Positions 2,051 through 43,350 of a stretch of DNA of 64,000 nt are shown here, in pieces. The stretch's first letter is position 1; every line of letters begins with the position of its first letter. Origin of the DNA: Bacteroidales bacterium. Lineage in GTDB: Bacteria; Bacteroidota; Bacteroidia; Bacteroidales; GCA-2748055. The DNA is taken from contig JAIPBT010000008.1 of NCBI GenBank assembly GCA_021738565.1, positions 1-64,000 on the forward strand, read 5' to 3'. The position numbers were made by a program, and so were the translations under genes. The notes under the pieces were generated by a model, which was given only the letters and a program-made list of their open reading frames with translations, was not told the DNA's origin and searched no databases.

Positions 2051-2569
2051 ATGAAAAAATTAAGTTTGGCATTCACTCTCCTGGTGTTTTTCGGGGCACT
2101 GAATGCACAGTCGGCAGCAGACAAGATCTTCAAAAAATATTCCGGAAAGGATGGATATACTACAGTTGTCATTAGTAGCTATATGTTCCAGTTTCTTTCG
2201 AATATTGAAAGTGATGATCCTGACTACCAAATATTTAAAGATGCAACTTCAGGCATTGAGACACTGCGAATCCTCACACAGGACGGACCACAATCTGAAA
2301 ATTTCGGTAAGGAATTACTTGACATGCTGCCGAGAGTTGAGTACAAGGAGTTGATGGTGGTTAAGGAAGACAATGAGGAAGTTTTGTTCCTGGTGAAAGA
2401 AGCTGGCGGTGGCAAAATATCTGAATTTTTATTGATAGTAACCGGTGACGGAGAAGACAATGCTTTGATCGTCATTACAGGCAACATCAACCTTGAAAGC
2501 ATCTCAAGCCTGTCCAGAGGATTGGACCTTCCTGCCATGGAAAACCTTGATAATCTGGAAGATCAGTAA
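2051..2569 (+). CDS. DUF4252 domain-containing protein, second copy
   Basis: Signal peptide; paralogous in pattern to 319-822 (KYSGKDGYTTVVISSYMFQFLSN vs KYSGQEGVTVVNISPELFQVMSG). Confidence 0.75.
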   Translation: MKKLSLAFTLLVFFGALNAQSAADKIFKKYSGKDGYTTVVISSYMFQFLSNIESDDPDYQIFKDATSGIETLRILTQDGPQSENFGKELLDMLPRVEYKELMVVKEDNEEVLFLVKEAGGGKISEFLLIVTGDGEDNALIVITGNINLESISSLSRGLDLPAMENLDNLEDQ

Positions 2570-3939
2570 TAAATTATTTTTTCTACTCTGTTTTTGCGCA
2601 GCCAGTTACTGAGTATCTGACGTACATCACGGTTATCGATTGCCGGCTGAATGCAATCCAGAAGCTGGTCAACATTCAAATATCCTTCGTCAACAGAGAT
2701 GTACCCGTAGCCTTTGTACATTCCTTCTTCAATGTTTATAATGCTTCTTTCCCTGTTTTCCCTTCCCCTGTCTATTATCATCATATTGCCCCGGTCAAAC
2801 GAGAATTGCGAAATGAGCGCTTCAGCTCGCCTGTTATACTCTTTTACAGGTTCCTTTTGAATGCATGCTCCGTTGCATTGCCTTATGCCATAGTGGAAAC
2901 ATGCACCTTCAGTAGTATATAATCCACTTAATTTCTGACACAGCCAGTGTTTTTCAACAAGTTTTGAGAGTATTTGACGGGCTTCTGCCTTATTATTGAA
3001 TGCAGTTACAGGATGATCGAGTTGGTCAGCAACCCTGGACAATTTGAAAGTAATGTAACCGAAACTGTCTTTTTCCTGGTACAGCCCCCAGTGTGAAAGC
3101 GAGCGGCGCTGGGCACGGTTGTACAGTGGTTTGTTTCGTTTTATCTCCTCTGACTCCTTCAGGAGTGCAATTAACTCACTACCGGTCAACTCATAGGAAA
3201 TGGAGGTAATTCTTTCTTTCATTTCCATGTTCCTCTTTCCTTCATTGCTGGCAAGGTGGGACAATACCCTTTTCTTGATACTTACGCTTTTTCCGATGTA
3301 AAGCAATGTACCCTTCTCATCATGGAAATAATAGGTTCCTGTCTTGTCAGGAAGAGACTCAATATCCTGTACAGACAAATTTCCGTTCAGGTTCTTGTAT
3401 TTTGCCCTGTTGAATGCAAGCAGGTCAGTTTCACCAATGCTTTCTTTCGCCTTTGACATTAATAATTCAAAAAGCTGTACGGTTGCAAAAGCATCCCCGG
3501 AGGCCCTGTGTCTGCCATTTATCTCAATACCCAGTTCGTTACATAATTTCCCGAGGCTGTATGATTTATGCCCGGGAATTAGCTTTTTGCTTAACTTGAC
3601 AGTGCACAATGTTTCCCTTGAATAATCATAACCCAAACGGTGAAATTCATTCTTGATAAAGGAGTAGTCAAAACTCACATTGTGACCCACAATTGCAAAG
3701 CCCTCTGTTCGCTCCACCAATTCTTTGGCGATGTCATAAAATTTCGGAGCACTTTCCAACATTTCATTGCTGATGCCTGTTAAACCGGTAATGAATGGAG
3801 GTATGCTTCTTTCAGGATTGATCAAAGTAGTCCATTCGTCAACAATTCCTTGTCCGTCATGAAAATAGATGGCTATTTCAGTAATTTTTTCAACTTTCGG
3901 ACTTCCGCCTGTAGTTTCAATATCAAGAATGGCATACAT
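2563..3939 (-). CDS. DnaQ-like 3'-5' exonuclease fused to GIY-YIG (UvrC/Cho-like) nuclease
   Basis: N-terminal YAILDIETTGG / GHNVSFDYSFIKNEF exonuclease motifs; central GTYYFHDEKGTLLYIGKSVSIKKRVLSHL GIY-YIG motif. Confidence 0.85.
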   Translation of the reverse strand: MYAILDIETTGGSPKVEKITEIAIYFHDGQGIVDEWTTLINPERSIPPFITGLTGISNEMLESAPKFYDIAKELVERTEGFAIVGHNVSFDYSFIKNEFHRLGYDYSRETLCTVKLSKKLIPGHKSYSLGKLCNELGIEINGRHRASGDAFATVQLFELLMSKAKESIGETDLLAFNRAKYKNLNGNLSVQDIESLPDKTGTYYFHDEKGTLLYIGKSVSIKKRVLSHLASNEGKRNMEMKERITSISYELTGSELIALLKESEEIKRNKPLYNRAQRRSLSHWGLYQEKDSFGYITFKLSRVADQLDHPVTAFNNKAEARQILSKLVEKHWLCQKLSGLYTTEGACFHYGIRQCNGACIQKEPVKEYNRRAEALISQFSFDRGNMMIIDRGRENRERSIINIEEGMYKGYGYISVDEGYLNVDQLLDCIQPAIDNRDVRQILSNWLRKNRVEKIIYY

Positions 3940-4008
3940 TATGGACAGACACTAAATAATTTGTGAAGGCACTTTCATTAACCGCCATTCGAATAAAGTG
4001 GAGCCTTT

Positions 4009-7867: not shown

Positions 7868-8025
7868 ATTTCGTGCTTGTCAATAAAGTTGGAGTGGCTG
7901 GATCATAAAGTTCGAGAGCAAAGCGCGCAAAAATCTTAACCCGCAGTATCCGCCGACGGACGGATTCGAGGATTTAAGATTTTTGCAGCAATGCAGCTAT
8001 CGGACTTTATGGACAGACACTATTT
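7868..8025 (-). mobile_element. Short interspersed element family A, copy A1 (core 7872-8021, 150 bp, plus ATTT flanking repeats)
   Basis: Near-identical to 30194-30337 (same orientation); ends CGTGCTTGTCAATAAAGT...ACTTTATGGACAGACACT; ATTT at 7868-7871 and 8022-8025. Confidence 0.85.
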
Positions 8026-13904: not shown

Positions 13905-14047
13905 AATTAGTGTCAGAAATAAAACTCATATTATTAAGCAGTGCTTGATAAGAAAACGTCAAGAGCATCCCGATAGTCATCGGGATCGATGACTGTTTTG
14001 AAGTTGACCATAACGCAGCAATTGGCGTTTTCTTGCAAGCACTAATT
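13905..14047 (+). mobile_element. Short interspersed element family B, copy B1 (core 13909-14043, 135 bp, plus AATT flanking repeats)
   Basis: AGTGTCAGAAATAAAACTCATATTAT...TTGGCGTTTTCTTGCAAGCACT; AATT at 13905-13908 and 14044-14047. Confidence 0.85.
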
Positions 14048-24471: not shown

Positions 24472-26799
24472 TTAATACTTCACTATCTTTTCCGTTCTCA
24501 CCCAGGCACTGGATCTTACAGAAACAAAGTAAATACCCCTGGAATACTGACTTAAATCCACCTGTTCAGCTGTTTTGTTGTGTTCTTTCCGATAAATAAC
24601 ACGACCTGCAATAGAAAAGATTTCAATATCGGTTTGTACTGAATGGGCAAGTTCAATGGTGAAAGTTCCGTCATTGGGATTCGGATAGATTCTAACGCCA
24701 GCTTCGCTATAAATACCAACAATATTGGATGTGTCATTACAGTTCTCGAACACAATATTATCACTGCCTGTAGCACTATATTTTTCCTTTCTGCCTTCAG
24801 GAGGGAATGGCAGCTCCCATACAATCACTTCTGTAAGGGTTGGCATGTCCATTAATAGCAGGTTAAATCCATAAGTATAATCTGGGTTCTGATCAATCAT
24901 TAAGTCAGTATTGTTGCAAATATCGAGGCTTGTCAATAAGTTAGCGGAGCAATCCAGGTGACCCAGCCAGGCATTGTTTGTAAGGTCTAGTTCTGTGATG
25001 GCATTATGCTGGCAGTCCAGAACAACCAGCAGGGGATTATTAGTTACATCCAGACCGGCCAGTTTATTAGACGAACAATCCAGAACAGCAAGGTCAGTGT
25101 TCTGTGTTACATCAAGGATGGTTAATGCGTTATCATAACATAATAATCGTACCAGTTCAGTGTTATTTGAAACTTCCAGGTTCGTTAGCTGGTTGATGTT
25201 ACAGTTTAGGTAGTTTAGTTTAGAATTTTGGGATACATCCAAAGATGTTAACTGGTTGATTCCACACAATAGTATTTTTAAGGAATCATTCTGTGAAACG
25301 TTCAGGGAGGTTAGATGGTTATTGTAACAATATAACGTTTGGAGGGATGTAAAACCTGTAATGTTCAAGGTGTCTAATGAGTTTTTACTACAGTCCAGAT
25401 AGGTAAGATAATTACCATTTGTGATATTTAATTCCGTGAGGTCATTTCCATGGCAATCTATATAGCTGAATGATTTATAGTTTAAGATATCTATATTTGA
25501 AAGGTTGTTATCGCAACAATTGATAGAATCCAACAAAGTAAATCTCTCAATTCCGGATAAATCAGAAATGTTACCGTTTGAGATATTTAGTTTTTTAACA
25601 TTTTCTGCCTCTGAATAACTGATAAAACCATCTTCATTGGTGTCTACACCTTCCTTAATTAGTGCCGATAAAAAGTACTTGTCAGGGAATATAATATATC
25701 GTGCATAAGAAGATGGACAAGTTCCCCATTTAGGAAAAAACACGGATGCCAATGGACAATCGGTAGCAAAATCCTTTGGTTCCCGATCTATTTTTTCCAC
25801 ACACCAAACGGATATATTCTGATTAAATGACTCCGCTTTTGCAAACATCTCACTCATATCGGTCACGTTACTCACATCCCATGATTTAATGTCTTGATTG
25901 AATTGCCAATTTCCATAAAACATCTGTGACATATTTGTTACTGGCGAGGTGCAAAGAATGGTTAAATCAGCGCCTTCATCTCTTCTTTGTTCAAGTAATT
26001 TCCTGTTTACAGCTTCATAGAGAATACTATTTACGGTTCCTGTATCTCCGGGTTGGCATTTTTCGCATTTAATTGTCGTACCGTTTTCGTCTAAGTAGAA
26101 ATAAGGAATACAGGGTTCACCCCATTCAGGGAAAAAGTCTGACTGCAACGGGCAGCCACCTGCAAAATCCTCCGGTTCAATATTTATATTTTCAACACAC
26201 CAAATTGATATATCCTGGTTGAATGATTTGGCAGCCCTGAACATAGCCGACATATCAGTTACATTACCAACATCCCATAAGCCAATGTCCTTGTTAAATG
26301 TAGTTGCAAAAGAAAACATATAATCCATTTTTGTCACCCTGCCTACATCCCACGCTTCAATATCTTGGTTAAAAGCATCAGCATCATAAAACATATGACT
26401 CATATCAGTCACATTACTTACATTCCATGCACCAATATCCTGGTTGAATGAAGCAGCATAATTAAACATATGACACATATCAGTCACGCTACTTACATCC
26501 CATGAACCAATATCCTGGTTAAAATCATCCATGCGATAAAACAGACTATCCATTTCCGTGACCAGCGAGGTACATATTACGATCAAATTGGCTCCTTCAT
26601 CTTTTCTTTTATCCAGTAATTCCCGATCCACAGCTTCATACCGAATCCCATTCACAAGTCCTGTATCCCCGGGTTGACAGTTTTTACATTTGATAGTGAT
26701 ACCGTTTTCATCTAAATAGAAAGTGGGGATCTCCTGTGCCGGGCATTGTTTTGCCGTGATGAATAGAAGTACAAGAATAAGGCCTGGCAATTTATTCAT
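24472..26799 (-). CDS. BspA-like (DUF285) / LRR surface protein with T9SS C-terminal sorting domain
   Basis: Repeated FNQDIGxWDVSxVTDMxxMF units, ~22-aa LRR units (LTSLDVSQNSKLNYLNCNINQ), C-terminal GVRIYPNPNDGTFTIEL...IVKY. Confidence 0.88.
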   Translation of the reverse strand: MNKLPGLILVLLFITAKQCPAQEIPTFYLDENGITIKCKNCQPGDTGLVNGIRYEAVDRELLDKRKDEGANLIVICTSLVTEMDSLFYRMDDFNQDIGSWDVSSVTDMCHMFNYAASFNQDIGAWNVSNVTDMSHMFYDADAFNQDIEAWDVGRVTKMDYMFSFATTFNKDIGLWDVGNVTDMSAMFRAAKSFNQDISIWCVENINIEPEDFAGGCPLQSDFFPEWGEPCIPYFYLDENGTTIKCEKCQPGDTGTVNSILYEAVNRKLLEQRRDEGADLTILCTSPVTNMSQMFYGNWQFNQDIKSWDVSNVTDMSEMFAKAESFNQNISVWCVEKIDREPKDFATDCPLASVFFPKWGTCPSSYARYIIFPDKYFLSALIKEGVDTNEDGFISYSEAENVKKLNISNGNISDLSGIERFTLLDSINCCDNNLSNIDILNYKSFSYIDCHGNDLTELNITNGNYLTYLDCSKNSLDTLNITGFTSLQTLYCYNNHLTSLNVSQNDSLKILLCGINQLTSLDVSQNSKLNYLNCNINQLTNLEVSNNTELVRLLCYDNALTILDVTQNTDLAVLDCSSNKLAGLDVTNNPLLVVLDCQHNAITELDLTNNAWLGHLDCSANLLTSLDICNNTDLMIDQNPDYTYGFNLLLMDMPTLTEVIVWELPFPPEGRKEKYSATGSDNIVFENCNDTSNIVGIYSEAGVRIYPNPNDGTFTIELAHSVQTDIEIFSIAGRVIYRKEHNKTAEQVDLSQYSRGIYFVSVRSSAWVRTEKIVKY

Positions 26800-28913: not shown

Positions 28914-29411
28914 TTATTTGATCTTCTTTTTCCTGTTCAGGTAATTCATTTTGATCCATATCCTCAGTGCCGGTCCGTTCAGTTCAAAAGTGACCTCTTC
29001 AAATCCGGGCTTTTTCAGTTTCAAAAAAGAGGGATTGGTTGACATTCCCCATCCTTCAGCCGGGAGGCTGAGAATGTAGTTCATTGACAGGCTCAGGTCT
29101 TCGTCATCAAGCACGGCGCAGGCATATTTACCGCGGGGCAGACTGTCAATTTCCACAGTCATGTTTCCGTTCTTTAAATGACCTTTATCCCATACAAAAT
29201 TATATTTTGGAGCATCTGTCCACTGTTCTTCAGCATCGTACAGTCCCATCGCAATCTGTCCGGCATTGCTCCTGATGTCAGTGAATGTTATGATCAGCCT
29301 GCCGCAGGCATACGATTGTGCCTGGCAAAATATACTGACCTGGGTGGATAGTAAAATGCATAATACTAAAGGCTTAACGTTCAAGGTAATTGACGGTGAA
29401 GTAATTTTCAT
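28914..29411 (-). CDS. DUF2141 domain-containing exported protein
   Basis: LIITFTDIRSNAGQIAMGLYDAEEQW...GKYACAVLDDEDLSLSMNY; later Met start chosen to reduce overlap. Confidence 0.7.
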   Translation of the reverse strand: MKITSPSITLNVKPLVLCILLSTQVSIFCQAQSYACGRLIITFTDIRSNAGQIAMGLYDAEEQWTDAPKYNFVWDKGHLKNGNMTVEIDSLPRGKYACAVLDDEDLSLSMNYILSLPAEGWGMSTNPSFLKLKKPGFEEVTFELNGPALRIWIKMNYLNRKKKIK

Positions 29412-30147
29412 TGGTTGCAGTAATTTGTATCTCATCCATCTTCATCCTTGAACTCCTGCCATTTTGGTGGTTGACCGCGTACATCTCCGTAACCATGTAT
29501 TTTCCTGCTGCTTTTTCAAGGAGCTCGTAGGATACCGTTTCAATTGTTTTAATTACCTGGTTATCGTAATCATAATATTCTGTCTTCTGCACAATATAAT
29601 CATTTTTCCCAATCCATGCATTTCTTTCAGTGTATCCGTATTCATCCTCCAGGTTGATATTTTTTGGCCGGGCCTTGATCTTCCAGCAGTGGATGCCATT
29701 CACAGTTTCTTCACCTGTCAATTCATAATCGAAATCTTCAACTTTAGGGGCAGACATATCGCCATTGCTGAATTCTGATCCCATGAATGAATTGCTTTTC
29801 TCGCTGGATACTATGCGGCGTGTCTTCCTGAGCGCGGGCAGGTAGATCCACATATCATCGGCTTTGTCCTCGTAGTCAAATATCAGTATTCCCGTGCCCT
29901 TAACTTCAGCCGGGGAGGTAAATTTAATGATCCTTTTTTCGGTTCCGTCTGCATAGGCTTTGGATGCCATGGTATTTTCCCTTATCCTAACATTCCCTCG
30001 ACTGTCGGTTATAGATAGCGTTGACAATGCCTCAAACGAACTGATTTTAACGGCATCATGACTTTTTCTTACAATTTCAGCCGGATCCTGACCCTGACAT
30101 AAAACAGAATGTAAAAGGATAAAACTTATAATTATTATTTTATACAT
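29374..30147 (-). CDS. LolA-like outer membrane lipoprotein-sorting protein
   Basis: Signal peptide; ILIFDYEDKADDMWIYLPALRKTRRIVSSEKSNSFMGSEFSNGDMS pattern. Confidence 0.8.
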   Translation of the reverse strand: MYKIIIISFILLHSVLCQGQDPAEIVRKSHDAVKISSFEALSTLSITDSRGNVRIRENTMASKAYADGTEKRIIKFTSPAEVKGTGILIFDYEDKADDMWIYLPALRKTRRIVSSEKSNSFMGSEFSNGDMSAPKVEDFDYELTGEETVNGIHCWKIKARPKNINLEDEYGYTERNAWIGKNDYIVQKTEYYDYDNQVIKTIETVSYELLEKAAGKYMVTEMYAVNHQNGRSSRMKMDEIQITATNENYFTVNYLER

Positions 30148-30189: not shown

Positions 30190-30341
30190 ATATAGTGCTT
30201 GTCAATATAGTTGGAGTGGCTGGATCATAAAGTTCGAGAGCAAAGCGCGTAAAAATCTTAAACCGCAGTATACTAACGTATTCGAGGATTTAAGATTTTT
30301 GCAGCAATGCAGCTATCGGACTTTATGGACAGACACTATAT
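30190..30341 (-). mobile_element. Short interspersed element family A, copy A2 (core 30194-30337, 144 bp, plus ATAT flanking repeats)
   Basis: AGTGCTTGTCAATATAGT...ACTTTATGGACAGACACT; ATAT at 30190-30193 and 30338-30341. Confidence 0.88.
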
Positions 30342-32642
30342 AGCTTCTAATAAATCATCATCTCTCTGACTTTTCAGTTTTGTTGTTACAGGTTCCAGGA
30401 ATTTAAATTTATATTTCAGTACCAATGCAGGTAAAACTACGAGAGCTCCTGCAAGACAGCTGAATATACTCACAACCACAAGGATGCCAAAAAAGCGGAT
30501 TGGGGTAAATGATGATATGATCAGTATAATGAATCCCACTATAACTGAGAAGGCGTTGAAGATTATTCCTCTTCCCGTGGTGGTTAATGTGGTTATTACA
30601 GCCTCTTTTTTGGGCCGGTGCTGCTGTCTTTCTTCCCTGTATCTCCACAAAAAATGTATGGTATAGTCAACACCAACACCGATCATGATTGAAGACAAAA
30701 GGGCGGTTGCCACATCCAGGTTGACGCCTGTGATCCCCATGAGCCCGAAAAGGATGATGATTGAGATCCCAAGCGGGATAATACTTATCATTCCGGCCTT
30801 CAGGGATTTGAATATTACAGAGAGGATGATAAAGACGATGAGCATGGCAATACTCAGGGAATAGAACTGGCCCTGCACAACTTTGCTTGCAAGCTGGCTC
30901 CTTACAAACCCGTACCCTCCCACAGCGGTAACATGCGGGTCATCTTTGGTAATCTCTTTGATCCTGACGATGATGTTGTTGACCACTTTGTTATGTACAC
31001 TATTGATCCTGATGAGCATATGGGAATGTTCATAACCAAAATCCACCAGTTGGTCGAGGTCTTCGGTATTGCCATTCATACTGTACAGTTCCATGAATTG
31101 AGCTACGGCATTTCTCATGGGAGGTATCGCATTGAAAAGCGGATCACCCGGGTCATAGAGGGCTTTGCTTATTTCTTTGATCACATCCGGGAAAGACATT
31201 ACCAGGTCGATTTCTTCCACTTTCAATAATTCCTTTTCATAGCTTTCAATAGAACCAAGCATTGCCGGATCCAGCATATCACCTTCAAACAGGATGGAAA
31301 GATTTTCCGATCCCCCGTATTTTGAATTGATCAGTTTGGAACCCTGTTTTACCGGGTGTTTATCGAGAAAGAAATTTTCTTCATTGGAGTCTACCTTGAG
31401 GAAGGCTATTCCCGTACCAATGGCAATGGTCAGGATGAGGGCAACCACCGGTATCCTTCTATATTTTGATGTAATAAAAAATGCGAGTCTGTTCAGGAAA
31501 TTGTTTCTTTGTAAGACAGATCTTTTTTGAAGTGCCGGCAATGGTTTGGAAGGTTTCAGCAGTGACAGAATGGCCGGAAGCAGGACAATGCTGTAAACCA
31601 ATGCAAAAACAATACCTATCCCTGCAATTAAGGCCATCTGGCGTGCAGGGATCATGGTATGTGCAAGAAGGGCCATGATCCCGGCTATGGTCGTTATGCC
31701 GGTCAGCACTATCGGTCTCCACAGTTTTTTTGCAATGATCAATGCAATCTCTTTCATGGTATGGTTGTTGTCCCCTGCATTGATCTCCTGGTATTTTGCC
31801 ATGATATGTATTCCGTAGTCATTTGCAATGGCAATCAGCATAATCGGAACCAACAGGGTAATAAAGTAGAACTGCCAGCCGATAAGGGGGATAAGGGACA
31901 GAGCAATTGTGGTGGACATAATAACCACAAGGAAAGGCATGATCACTCCCCTGGGCTCCCTGAATACAAAAAAGAGAAAAATGGTCATCAACAGCAATGC
32001 AGCAGGTACAAGTATGAGCGCGTCCCTTTTGATGTCCTTGTTCATTTCCTGTCTGAGGTAGGGCAGTCCGCCATAAAAAACATCCTCCTTACCCGGGTAC
32101 TCTTCCAGCAATGAGTGAACTGCCATGAATACACTGTCTTCATCAGCATTCTCTGCGAGAGAGGCAATAATGGCCGAAGACCGAAAATCATCTGCTACAA
32201 CGATATTCATCACAAGTTCGTTCCCTGCAAGTGTTTCCTTTAACTCGTCGGTTTCTTCGAGGGTCCGCGGAATACGTTTGATCGCAGGTTCAACGTACAT
32301 TATGCCATCCTTTCCATAGATGTGGTTTGAGCTGAAAAGCGAATTGGTTTTTCGAATGCCATTGATGCGTCCAATCCCCCGGTCGATATTTTTTATCCTC
32401 TTCAGACTGTTTGCATTGATGATGTTTTCTGTTTTGAAGATGATCATGACAATATCCTGGTTGCCAAATTTTTCCTCTATACGATTCGTGGCAACCATGC
32501 TTTCCATTGTTTCAGGAAAGTAATTTTTCAGGTCAGGATCAATTGAAATATTTTTCAATTGCAGTGCCAGAACGGTGGTCAGCAAAAAACTTGCAATTAT
32601 TAATGGCCACCTGTATTTGATTATTCCTCGCATTTTATACAA
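30336..32642 (-). CDS. RND/MMPL family transporter
   Basis: Two 6-TM repeats; ANDYGIHIMAKYQE and GVDYTIHFLWRYREE motifs. Confidence 0.88.
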   Translation of the reverse strand: MYKMRGIIKYRWPLIIASFLLTTVLALQLKNISIDPDLKNYFPETMESMVATNRIEEKFGNQDIVMIIFKTENIINANSLKRIKNIDRGIGRINGIRKTNSLFSSNHIYGKDGIMYVEPAIKRIPRTLEETDELKETLAGNELVMNIVVADDFRSSAIIASLAENADEDSVFMAVHSLLEEYPGKEDVFYGGLPYLRQEMNKDIKRDALILVPAALLLMTIFLFFVFREPRGVIMPFLVVIMSTTIALSLIPLIGWQFYFITLLVPIMLIAIANDYGIHIMAKYQEINAGDNNHTMKEIALIIAKKLWRPIVLTGITTIAGIMALLAHTMIPARQMALIAGIGIVFALVYSIVLLPAILSLLKPSKPLPALQKRSVLQRNNFLNRLAFFITSKYRRIPVVALILTIAIGTGIAFLKVDSNEENFFLDKHPVKQGSKLINSKYGGSENLSILFEGDMLDPAMLGSIESYEKELLKVEEIDLVMSFPDVIKEISKALYDPGDPLFNAIPPMRNAVAQFMELYSMNGNTEDLDQLVDFGYEHSHMLIRINSVHNKVVNNIIVRIKEITKDDPHVTAVGGYGFVRSQLASKVVQGQFYSLSIAMLIVFIILSVIFKSLKAGMISIIPLGISIIILFGLMGITGVNLDVATALLSSIMIGVGVDYTIHFLWRYREERQQHRPKKEAVITTLTTTGRGIIFNAFSVIVGFIILIISSFTPIRFFGILVVVSIFSCLAGALVVLPALVLKYKFKFLEPVTTKLKSQRDDDLLEAI

Positions 32643-34221: not shown

Positions 34222-34263
34222 AAATAGTGTCAGAAAGAAAACTCATATTATCAAGCACTAAAT
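34222..34263 (+). mobile_element. Short interspersed element family B, minimal copy B2 (core 34226-34259, 34 bp, plus AAAT flanking repeats)
   Basis: AGTGTCAGAAAGAAAACTCATATTATCAAGCACT; AAAT at 34222-34225 and 34260-34263. Confidence 0.82.
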
Positions 34264-38129: not shown

Positions 38130-38873
38130 ATGGAATTACTAAAAGAAAAAGTTGCATTGATAACAGGCGCTGCACGCGGAATAGGCAGAAAAATTGCGGA
38201 AGAGTACGCAAAAGAGGGTGCAGATATAGCTTTTACAGATCTTAAGCGAGATGAAAACATGGAGGCTCTTGAAAAGGAGCTGTCCGGTCTTGGCGTAAAA
38301 TGCAAGGGTTATGCAAGCGATGCCAGTGATTTTGAAGCTGCCCATAAAACGGCAGAGGAAGTTTTCAATGATTTTGGCAGGATTGATATACTGGTGAATA
38401 ATGCAGGTATTACAAGGGATACGCTCCTTATGAGAATGGAAGAGGAGATGTGGGACCTTGTTATAAAGGTTAATTTAAAATCTGTATTCAATTTCACCAA
38501 AGCTGTCCAGAAATATATGCTTAAGGCCCGCACCGGTTCGATCATCAACATGAGTTCCGTTGTTGGGGTGAATGGCAATGCCGGACAGTCTAATTACTCT
38601 GCTTCCAAGGCCGGTATTATTGGCTTTACAAAATCCGTTGCTAAGGAATTGGGGTCCCGCAACATACGCTGTAATGCCGTTGCTCCGGGTTTTATAATCA
38701 CTGCTATGACCGATAAGTTGCCCGATGATGTAAAAGAGCAATGGATAAAGACCATTCCACTGAGAAGGGGAGGAGTTCCTGAAGATGTTGCCAGGGTATG
38801 CATTTTCCTCGGGTCAGGACTTTCATCATATGTAACCGGGCAAACTATTTCTGTGTGTGGAGGTATGAGCTAA
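38130..38873 (+). CDS. fabG: 3-oxoacyl-ACP reductase FabG
   Basis: SDR motifs TGAARGIGRKIAEEYA, NNAGITRDTLLMRM, YSASKAGIIGFTKS. Confidence 0.93.
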   Translation: MELLKEKVALITGAARGIGRKIAEEYAKEGADIAFTDLKRDENMEALEKELSGLGVKCKGYASDASDFEAAHKTAEEVFNDFGRIDILVNNAGITRDTLLMRMEEEMWDLVIKVNLKSVFNFTKAVQKYMLKARTGSIINMSSVVGVNGNAGQSNYSASKAGIIGFTKSVAKELGSRNIRCNAVAPGFIITAMTDKLPDDVKEQWIKTIPLRRGGVPEDVARVCIFLGSGLSSYVTGQTISVCGGMS

Positions 38874-39880
38874 TTGCAGGCGGTACAAGGAATCTTTGTA
38901 TTGCCTTTTTCGGTGTTCTGCTATTTTCCAGCTGTACAGGTCCGAAGAGTATTGTTAATGTCGAAATACTGGAACCTGCCGGAATCACTTACCCGGAAAA
39001 TGTGCAAAGGATCGGGTACCTCAACCATGCTCCGCTGTCCAGGGATTCTTACAATGGGTTTTCTGAAGAATTTGACCCCGTATCTTTAAGGATCATCGAT
39101 ACAATGGTCTGCAAAAATCTACAGAAAGGTTTCTTAGATGGCATAAAAAATACTGAATTGAGTTACCTTGACAGTATATTGTTCCTTGAATTTAGGAGAA
39201 AGGATACAACCGCCAGAACACAGCCGCTGACAAACAGGATACTTGAAACGGTTTTTAATACAAAGAACCTGGATGCACTCATCATACTTGATTATTATGC
39301 GGTTGATATTTCCAGGTCATATTCGCATTACAGCCTGATGACAGCCTCATTTGTAGAGGAATACAAGCTTATTATGGAAGTTGCTTACAGAACCGTTGTA
39401 AAGAATAATGACGAACCGCTGGACAAATACGTATCAAAGGACACGCTGTATTTTATGAATGAGTCAAGTATGCCCAGTTCTACTTATTTACATGCTTCAG
39501 ATGTAATCAGGAGCGGTGCCTACGAATTTGGATATGCCTATGGTATGCGGCATATTCCTGTATGGAACCAGGTTTCCAGGGTGGTCTTCAGGGGAAGAGA
39601 GGAAGAATTGAGACAGGCAGCCGCGCATACGGACATGGGAAACTGGGATGCAGCACTTCAAATATGGACTGCCCTGCTGTCAAGTGAAGACCAGCATCTT
39701 GCTGCCAAAGCAGCCCACAATATTGCGGTGTATTACGAACTTGAAGATGATGTTGAAACAGCATTGGGGTATGCTTCCAAAGCTGTTGAATTGTGGGTCA
39801 ATCATTACACCGAACTGTACAAACAGGAATTGAAAATCCGCTATATGAACAGGGAGGATCTGTTAAAACAGGTAAGGTAG
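38798..39880 (+). CDS. DUF6340-like lipoprotein with TPR-like C-terminus; true start uncertain (downstream of 38798)
   Basis: Lipobox LLFSSC; C-terminal TPR-like MGNWDAALQIWTALL...ALGYASKAVELW; stop codon formed at the boundary of element A3. Confidence 0.6.
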   Translation: MHFPRVRTFIICNRANYFCVWRYELIAGGTRNLCIAFFGVLLFSSCTGPKSIVNVEILEPAGITYPENVQRIGYLNHAPLSRDSYNGFSEEFDPVSLRIIDTMVCKNLQKGFLDGIKNTELSYLDSILFLEFRRKDTTARTQPLTNRILETVFNTKNLDALIILDYYAVDISRSYSHYSLMTASFVEEYKLIMEVAYRTVVKNNDEPLDKYVSKDTLYFMNESSMPSSTYLHASDVIRSGAYEFGYAYGMRHIPVWNQVSRVVFRGREEELRQAAAHTDMGNWDAALQIWTALLSSEDQHLAAKAAHNIAVYYELEDDVETALGYASKAVELWVNHYTELYKQELKIRYMNREDLLKQVR

Positions 39881-40068
39881 TGACTGTCCATAATGTCCGT
39901 TTGCTGCGTTACGCTTGTCGGAAAATTGCTCATCCCGATAATATATCGGGACTCCGCATTTCCCAACTTCGCAGGCCTTGCAAACGAACATTATGATCCA
40001 GCCACCCGACTTTATTGACAAGCACTTTGTAGTGCTATTCGACTTTATTGACAGACACCAGGTAAGGT
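39869..40068 (+). mobile_element. Composite family A element A3 (core 39879-40059) with 10-bp flanking direct repeat CAGGTAAGGT
   Basis: AGTGACTGTCCATAATGTCCG...ACTTTATTGACAAGCACT, then TTGT, then AGTGCTATTCGACTTTATTGACAGACACC; CAGGTAAGGT at 39869-39878 and 40059-40068. Confidence 0.78.
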
Positions 40069-43086: not shown

Positions 43087-43275
43087 ATGGCCAAAAAAGG
43101 TAAAGGCAACAGGGTTCAGGTGATCCTGGAATGTACGGAACACAAGGATAGCGGTATGCCGGGAACTTCTCGTTATATAACTACCAAGAGCAGGAAAAAC
43201 TCACCTGACAGGATGGAGCTTAAAAAGTATAACCCGGTCCTCAAGAAAGTTACAGTACACAGAGAAATTAAGTAG
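43087..43275 (+). CDS. rpmG: 50S ribosomal protein L33
   Basis: [38 protein letters not shown]. Confidence 0.95.
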
Positions 43276-43350
43276 TGTCAGAAAGAAAACTCATATTATT
43301 TTGCAGTGCTTGATAAGAAAGCTATTGGCGTTTTCTTGCAAGCACTAAGT
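43270..43350 (+). mobile_element. Short interspersed element family B, copy B3 (core 43274-43346, 73 bp, plus AAGT flanking repeats)
   Basis: AGTGTCAGAAAGAAAACTCATATTAT...TTGGCGTTTTCTTGCAAGCACT; AAGT at 43270-43273 and 43347-43350. Confidence 0.87.

Follow-up and report, generated by a model that had tools for sequence, protein, structure and literature searches.

A mobile repeat in a Bacteroidales genome lies across gene stop codons at a higher rate than expected from matched insertion sites

The 3′ end of an MMPL-family transporter gene (30336-32642, minus strand; Pfam MMPL, PF03176, E 1.2e-42) raises the question of whether a repeat that has entered a stop codon and rebuilt it is an accident of one locus or the habit of a mobile element. 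The gene is found in a 64,000 nt stretch of DNA from an uncultured Bacteroidales MAG, here called the window, to which the positions refer. On the minus strand it ends GAA GCT ATA T|AG. The T of the TAG stop (30336-30338, minus strand) comes from a target-site copy, and the AG (30337-30336) is the end of A2, a MITE-like element of 144 bp (30194-30337, minus strand). A2 has imperfect inverted ends, AGTG...CACT, with the sequences AGTGTCTGTCCATAAAGTCCG on the MMPL side (other strand) and AGTGCTTGTCAATATAGTTGG, and it forms a strong hairpin. The target-site duplication, ATAT, is present as a distal copy (30190-30193) and as an MMPL-side copy (30338-30341), whose base 30338 is the T of the stop codon. 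Downstream of A2 is a LolA_like outer-membrane lipoprotein-sorting gene (29374-30147, minus strand; PF17131, E 1.5e-55).

When the flanks are joined without A2 and with one ATAT removed, the gene reads GAA GCT ATA TAA. Both the regeneration of the MMPL stop by A2 and a TAA at the empty site had been proposed from the sequence of the locus, and both are borne out. MMPL orthologues in four related Bacteroidales MAGs have the same end codon and lack the element; they end ...K A I TAA in three (L201, L202, L203) and ...V A I TAG in the fourth (L204). In two genomes of the same genus (G002 and G003) the orthologue also ends ...KAI TAA. Because the orthologues stop at the same Ala-Ile codon without the element, A2 is seen to have inserted in the native MMPL stop.

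A2 has the structure of a MITE, i.e., it is short and non-coding, with terminal inverted repeats and no protein frame of note. Folded as RNA together with its target copies (30190-30341) it gives -44.1 kcal/mol, with z = -5.8 relative to shuffled sequence. A search of Rfam at gathering score shows no RNA family match in the window. With A2 as query, 32 near-complete copies are detected in the genome, up to 99% identical, and the end pattern has 267 matches genome-wide versus 42 for a reversed control. The MAG comprises 3.98 Mb in 83 contigs, and elements were surveyed in 2.65 Mb of it (67%), a complete element being taken as two ends that face inward and have the same 4 bases on their outer sides. 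Dispersed through these 2.65 Mb are 97 complete elements with a 4-bp duplication, or 94 loci after back-to-back copies are merged; the copy number of the repeat in the genome is well over 100. A second family, B, has the ends AGTGTCAGAAAGAAAAC and AGTGCTTGCAAGAAAAC.

The duplicated target is ANNT, with matching NN, in 91 of the 97 complete elements, and it is flanked by T and A in 81. The outer flank favours Y on one side and R on the other, which gives a preferred site Y-T-ANNT-A-R (YTANNTAR). A 6-bp TANNTA duplication was considered and rejected, as the flank bases do not co-vary; non-consensus flanks differ from the terminal bases of the element in nearly all cases, and the duplication is therefore 4 bp. 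T-ANNT-A is recreated at both junctions, and back-to-back elements occur. Element lengths cluster at 143-155 bp, with a second group at 22-66 bp. Seventeen short elements with duplications were found versus none for seven permuted end sequences. The short forms resemble remnants of deletions whose edges were joined at short repeats, and since their junctions lie at microhomologies of 2-4 bp they are probably hairpin deletions. Examples with perfect 4-bp duplications are at 34226-34259 of the window, C53:38665, C74:111494, C20:15373 and C50:115134, and several unrelated loci share one and the same 34-bp form.

Two other elements of the window also complete a stop. A3 (39879-40059; target AGGT at 39875-39878 and 40060-40063) completes the TAG at 39878-39880 of a DUF6340 gene (38855-39880, plus strand), which reads AGG TAG with the element and AGG TAA without it. 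B3, of 73 bp (43274-43346; target AAGT at 43270-43273 and 43347-43350), completes the TAG at 43273-43275 of a small gene, which we take from its protein letters alone to encode ribosomal protein L33. B3 is situated between this gene and the next, inside a likely operon. The remaining elements are an A element (7873-8021, target ATTT), intergenic and with one end mutated to CGTG; a B element of 135 bp (13909-14043, target AATT) located 17 bp past the upstream stop; and the remnant-like B element of 34 bp noted above (34226-34259, target AAAT). The original prediction foresaw the TAG at the A3 junction correctly, and its count of two in six window insertions at T^AA stops has to be raised, as A3 is also a conversion of T|AA to T|AG and three of the six complete elements (A2, A3 and B3) rebuild a stop. 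Two further features of the window are recorded here. A lone element end, AGTGTCTGTCCATAATGT, at 3936-3953 overlaps the start codon of a minus-strand gene (2563-3939), with no second end found. Tandem 75-bp repeats at 25814-26722 lie in a 775-aa gene whose repeated MF/FNQDIxxWDVSNVTDM motifs resemble, by eye, a BspA-like surface protein.

Stop overlap was then counted against 1921 genes called with a simple home-made hexamer model in 67% of this one MAG. The start of the gene stop, relative to the first base of the element, is at -1 (T|AG) at 30 element ends and at -5, where the stop lies inside the flank and target copy, at 14, with almost none elsewhere. By locus, the 94 divide into 25 at -1, 9 at -5, 16 that lie no more than 60 bp past a stop, 38 in other intergenic positions and 6 that overlap genes; at 25-26 loci the element supplies the AG that completes a gene stop. 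Overlap in the 2.65 of 3.98 Mb analysed is above expectation, so the view that it is no greater than that of intergenic ANNT sites does not hold. When TANNTA sites serve as the null, we count 19 loci at -1 where 2.4 are expected (p 1.6e-12), and with YTANNTAR sites 15 where 3.3 are expected (p 4.7e-7). Sequence-matched tolerated sites altogether give an expectation of 2.4-4 loci (p 1e-7 to 1e-12). The addition of 141 small genes changes this little (20 versus 2.7 for TANNTA and 16 versus 3.9 for YTANNTAR). Perfect target sites are occupied at about 30% when at stops and at about 6% when noncoding.

Flank composition as the cause of the excess was rejected. In a logistic regression with flank, composition and context terms, the outer-flank YR and the GC near the site matter, and the stop term persists, with an odds ratio of 11 (z 6) for -1 and 4.4 for -5. 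When sites are matched by gap size and motif, the odds ratio drops from 10 to about 4-5 (p about 0.005); the -5 excess is then largely gone. In gaps of 60 bp or less the odds ratio is 2.4-2.5 and not significant. Long gaps have few occupied noncoding sites, possibly owing to uncalled genes within them. Sites 0-60 bp past a stop are occupied at expectation, so there is no general preference for gene ends. The repeat sits exactly across gene stops at about 4-6 times the frequency expected from matched insertion sites.

The best explanation overall, and one that we consider probable, is that A2, a non-autonomous MITE-like insertion, landed in the TAA that was the native stop of the MMPL gene, and that such silent insertions accumulate at stops through the target motif, purging and perhaps a residual preference. 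The enzyme would cut a palindromic Y-T|ANNT|A-R with a 4-base stagger, and ANNT is duplicated because of this presumed stagger. The rebuilding of the stop is in itself certainly mechanical, as it follows from the letters of the element ends and the target: the element starts with AG, so that when the last T of the target opens a stop the result is T|AG, regardless of whether T|AA, T|AG or T|GA stood there before. As the stop is rebuilt, the insertion is silent for the protein. Only at gene ends is the in-frame T the first base of a stop, so that insertions there are silent and other coding insertions truncate. The target half-site, TAR, is itself the sequence of a stop codon, and gene ends therefore offer ready targets. 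Insertions within genes would be purged and those at stops would survive. Beyond this tolerance, exact stop positions still show a 4-5 fold excess over motif-matched noncoding sites. For this residual, we slightly favour an insertion-level preference or a context effect beyond the 8-bp motif over selection against noncoding insertions. The original prediction had offered either a T|A target preference or selection for insertions that rebuild a stop. Both contribute in part, the first because the half-site spells TAR, the second because only stop-preserving insertions survive at gene ends, while neither accounts for the size of the excess and its single-base sharpness.

A distinct possibility, though we doubt it, is that tolerance suffices: YTANNTAR sites everywhere would receive insertions, which would harm genes and most noncoding DNA, and stops would be the safest places by virtue of the AG end. 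The coding sites, almost empty with 2 of about 550 YTANNTAR occupied, and the smaller stop excess in short gaps agree with this. Tolerance alone predicts equal occupancy just past the stop and in convergent gaps, and does not fit because neither is seen. In the fine profile the counts are 27 versus 4.5 expected at the stop, and yet 4 versus 4.7 at 0-15 bp past it, where the protein is equally spared. Convergent gene pairs need no promoters, and yet their noncoding sites are as empty as those of promoter-bearing regions; in these pairs stop sites are occupied in 7 of 42 cases versus 4 of 229 for noncoding sites. Nor is there depletion in the 150 bp upstream of starts. An active form of the preference should be considered as well, whereby insertion is guided to the exact in-frame stop base by the enzyme, or by the condition of the DNA or transcript where translation ends. 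We put this forward tentatively, as improbable on present evidence. If true, half-sites spelling TAR and an end spelling AG would amount to a built-in safe harbour.

It is unlikely that the excess reflects survivorship, i.e., an even spread of insertions from which stop-forming copies were kept because deletion of their ends would extend the protein. The oldest class is slightly higher at stops (5/16), yet copies at least 95% identical to another copy are similar (9/38), so that the predicted age trend is not evident; moreover merely two bases per element would be protected. Complete A elements at stops have the AGTGTCTG end toward the gene in 11 of 12 cases (p 0.006), versus orientations of 3:3 and 6:3 in two neighbouring classes. 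This orientation bias is suggestive only; both ends of the A element start with AG and would rebuild a stop equally well.

For 16 genes of stop loci, 30 orthologue ends were recovered from two same-genus genomes by a search with concatenated C-termini. All 16 have an orthologue that ends within 5 codons of the insertion point, and in 12 at least one orthologue has exactly the same end codon. None of these orthologue ends carries an element, as is expected of a MITE with empty sites in relatives. Any gene would be stopped by T|AG in frame 1, and R is favoured after TA in the target. It is nevertheless very improbable that insertions truncated genes and new TAG codons were mistaken for native stops, for in 24 of the 25 paired elements at -1 the empty site already has a stop at this codon, and the orthologue ends refute this reading for those 16 genes. 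An element-like end adjoins 7 of the 25 stop loci, and some empty-site stops are therefore element-derived; the orthologues still back several of these.

The element is named MITE-like because no autonomous transposon with shared ends was found in the genome portion and families searched. The 67% of the genome that was read holds no long autonomous element with the same ends and duplication, and chance long pairs of ends enclose host genes only. Throughout the whole genome, no member of PF01609 (DDE_Tnp_1) or PF01797 (Y1) has matching ends; the sole Y1 transposase gene has an internal stop (TAG) and no matching ends nearby. An IS630-like element (GTGTCATGTCAAT..., MVKYKVTLTKEER...), recorded at the contig ends of C13, C22 and C45 and at the C72 end, adjoins element ends at CAC|TA at three contig ends. 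Its own end differs by one inserted base from the element end in its GTGTCTGTCAAT form. It was rejected as a partner, as it is also found after CTA where no element is adjacent and seems to prefer CTA. An IS4-type transposase gene (C71:62456-63440, inverted repeat TGTCCCGTTTAA) adjoins a B element. The plasmids and phages searched have no match to the elements. In viral contigs one end has 0 matches and the other 8, with no element structure.

Each of the three same-genus genomes that were searched has such elements, as do some other families of the order. Of 12 loci in relatives from other genera and families, 3 have a stop completed at -1, among them both loci of G028, a more distant relative within the order; this is a small but independent sign that the stop-completing habit may be old. 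The repeat is a clear case of a mobile sequence whose end and target motif fit together so as to straddle stop codons and leave the host protein unharmed. It makes testable how far the end and target sequence of a transposon lower the cost of insertion, and it alerts annotators that in such genomes a large number of stops are part of an insertion.

Bacterial MITEs such as RUP of pneumococcus and Correia of Neisseria are mobilised by IS630-type transposases, as described in excerpts of a review (PMC2229807). In the same excerpts, these share with the present elements a length of about 100-150 bp, inverted repeats, lack of coding sequence, high copy number, a hairpin and a mostly intergenic location. 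RUP inserts at TA, whereas the elements here duplicate ANNT inside T-ANNT-A and so lack the TA duplication of IS630-type MITEs. A stop-codon excess is not mentioned for RUP or Correia in those excerpts of the review text (PMC2229807), nor was one found for such repeats in the literature searched, which omits most subscription journals. REP and REPIN sequences, which RAYT tyrosine transposases move, are likewise short, palindromic, extragenic and of high copy number (PMC3733652, PMC2817692). The present elements differ in their 4-bp target duplication and their length of 140-190 bp when complete, and they do not have the absence of duplication and the Y1 partner that characterise REP/RAYT systems.

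MITEs and other small mobile repeats at the 3′ ends of genes are known. QMITE2 of Coxiella lies at the 3′ end of enhC and lengthened its protein by 33 residues in one strain (PMC5896051), whereas here the native stop codon is restored. The enterobacterial RU-1 (ERIC) repeat is also found at gene 3′ ends, where it removed the normal stop and added residues (PMC2759123); the elements here add none. The 3′-end MITEs in the literature found extend proteins (PMC5896051, PMC2759123), with none restoring a native stop. Tn7 at attTn7 is similar in that insertion at the 3′ end of a gene spares the protein (PMC2918618). Tn7, however, is specific for a single gene sequence, that of glmS, downstream of which it inserts, whereas the repeat described here is found at many unrelated genes and in the stop codon itself.
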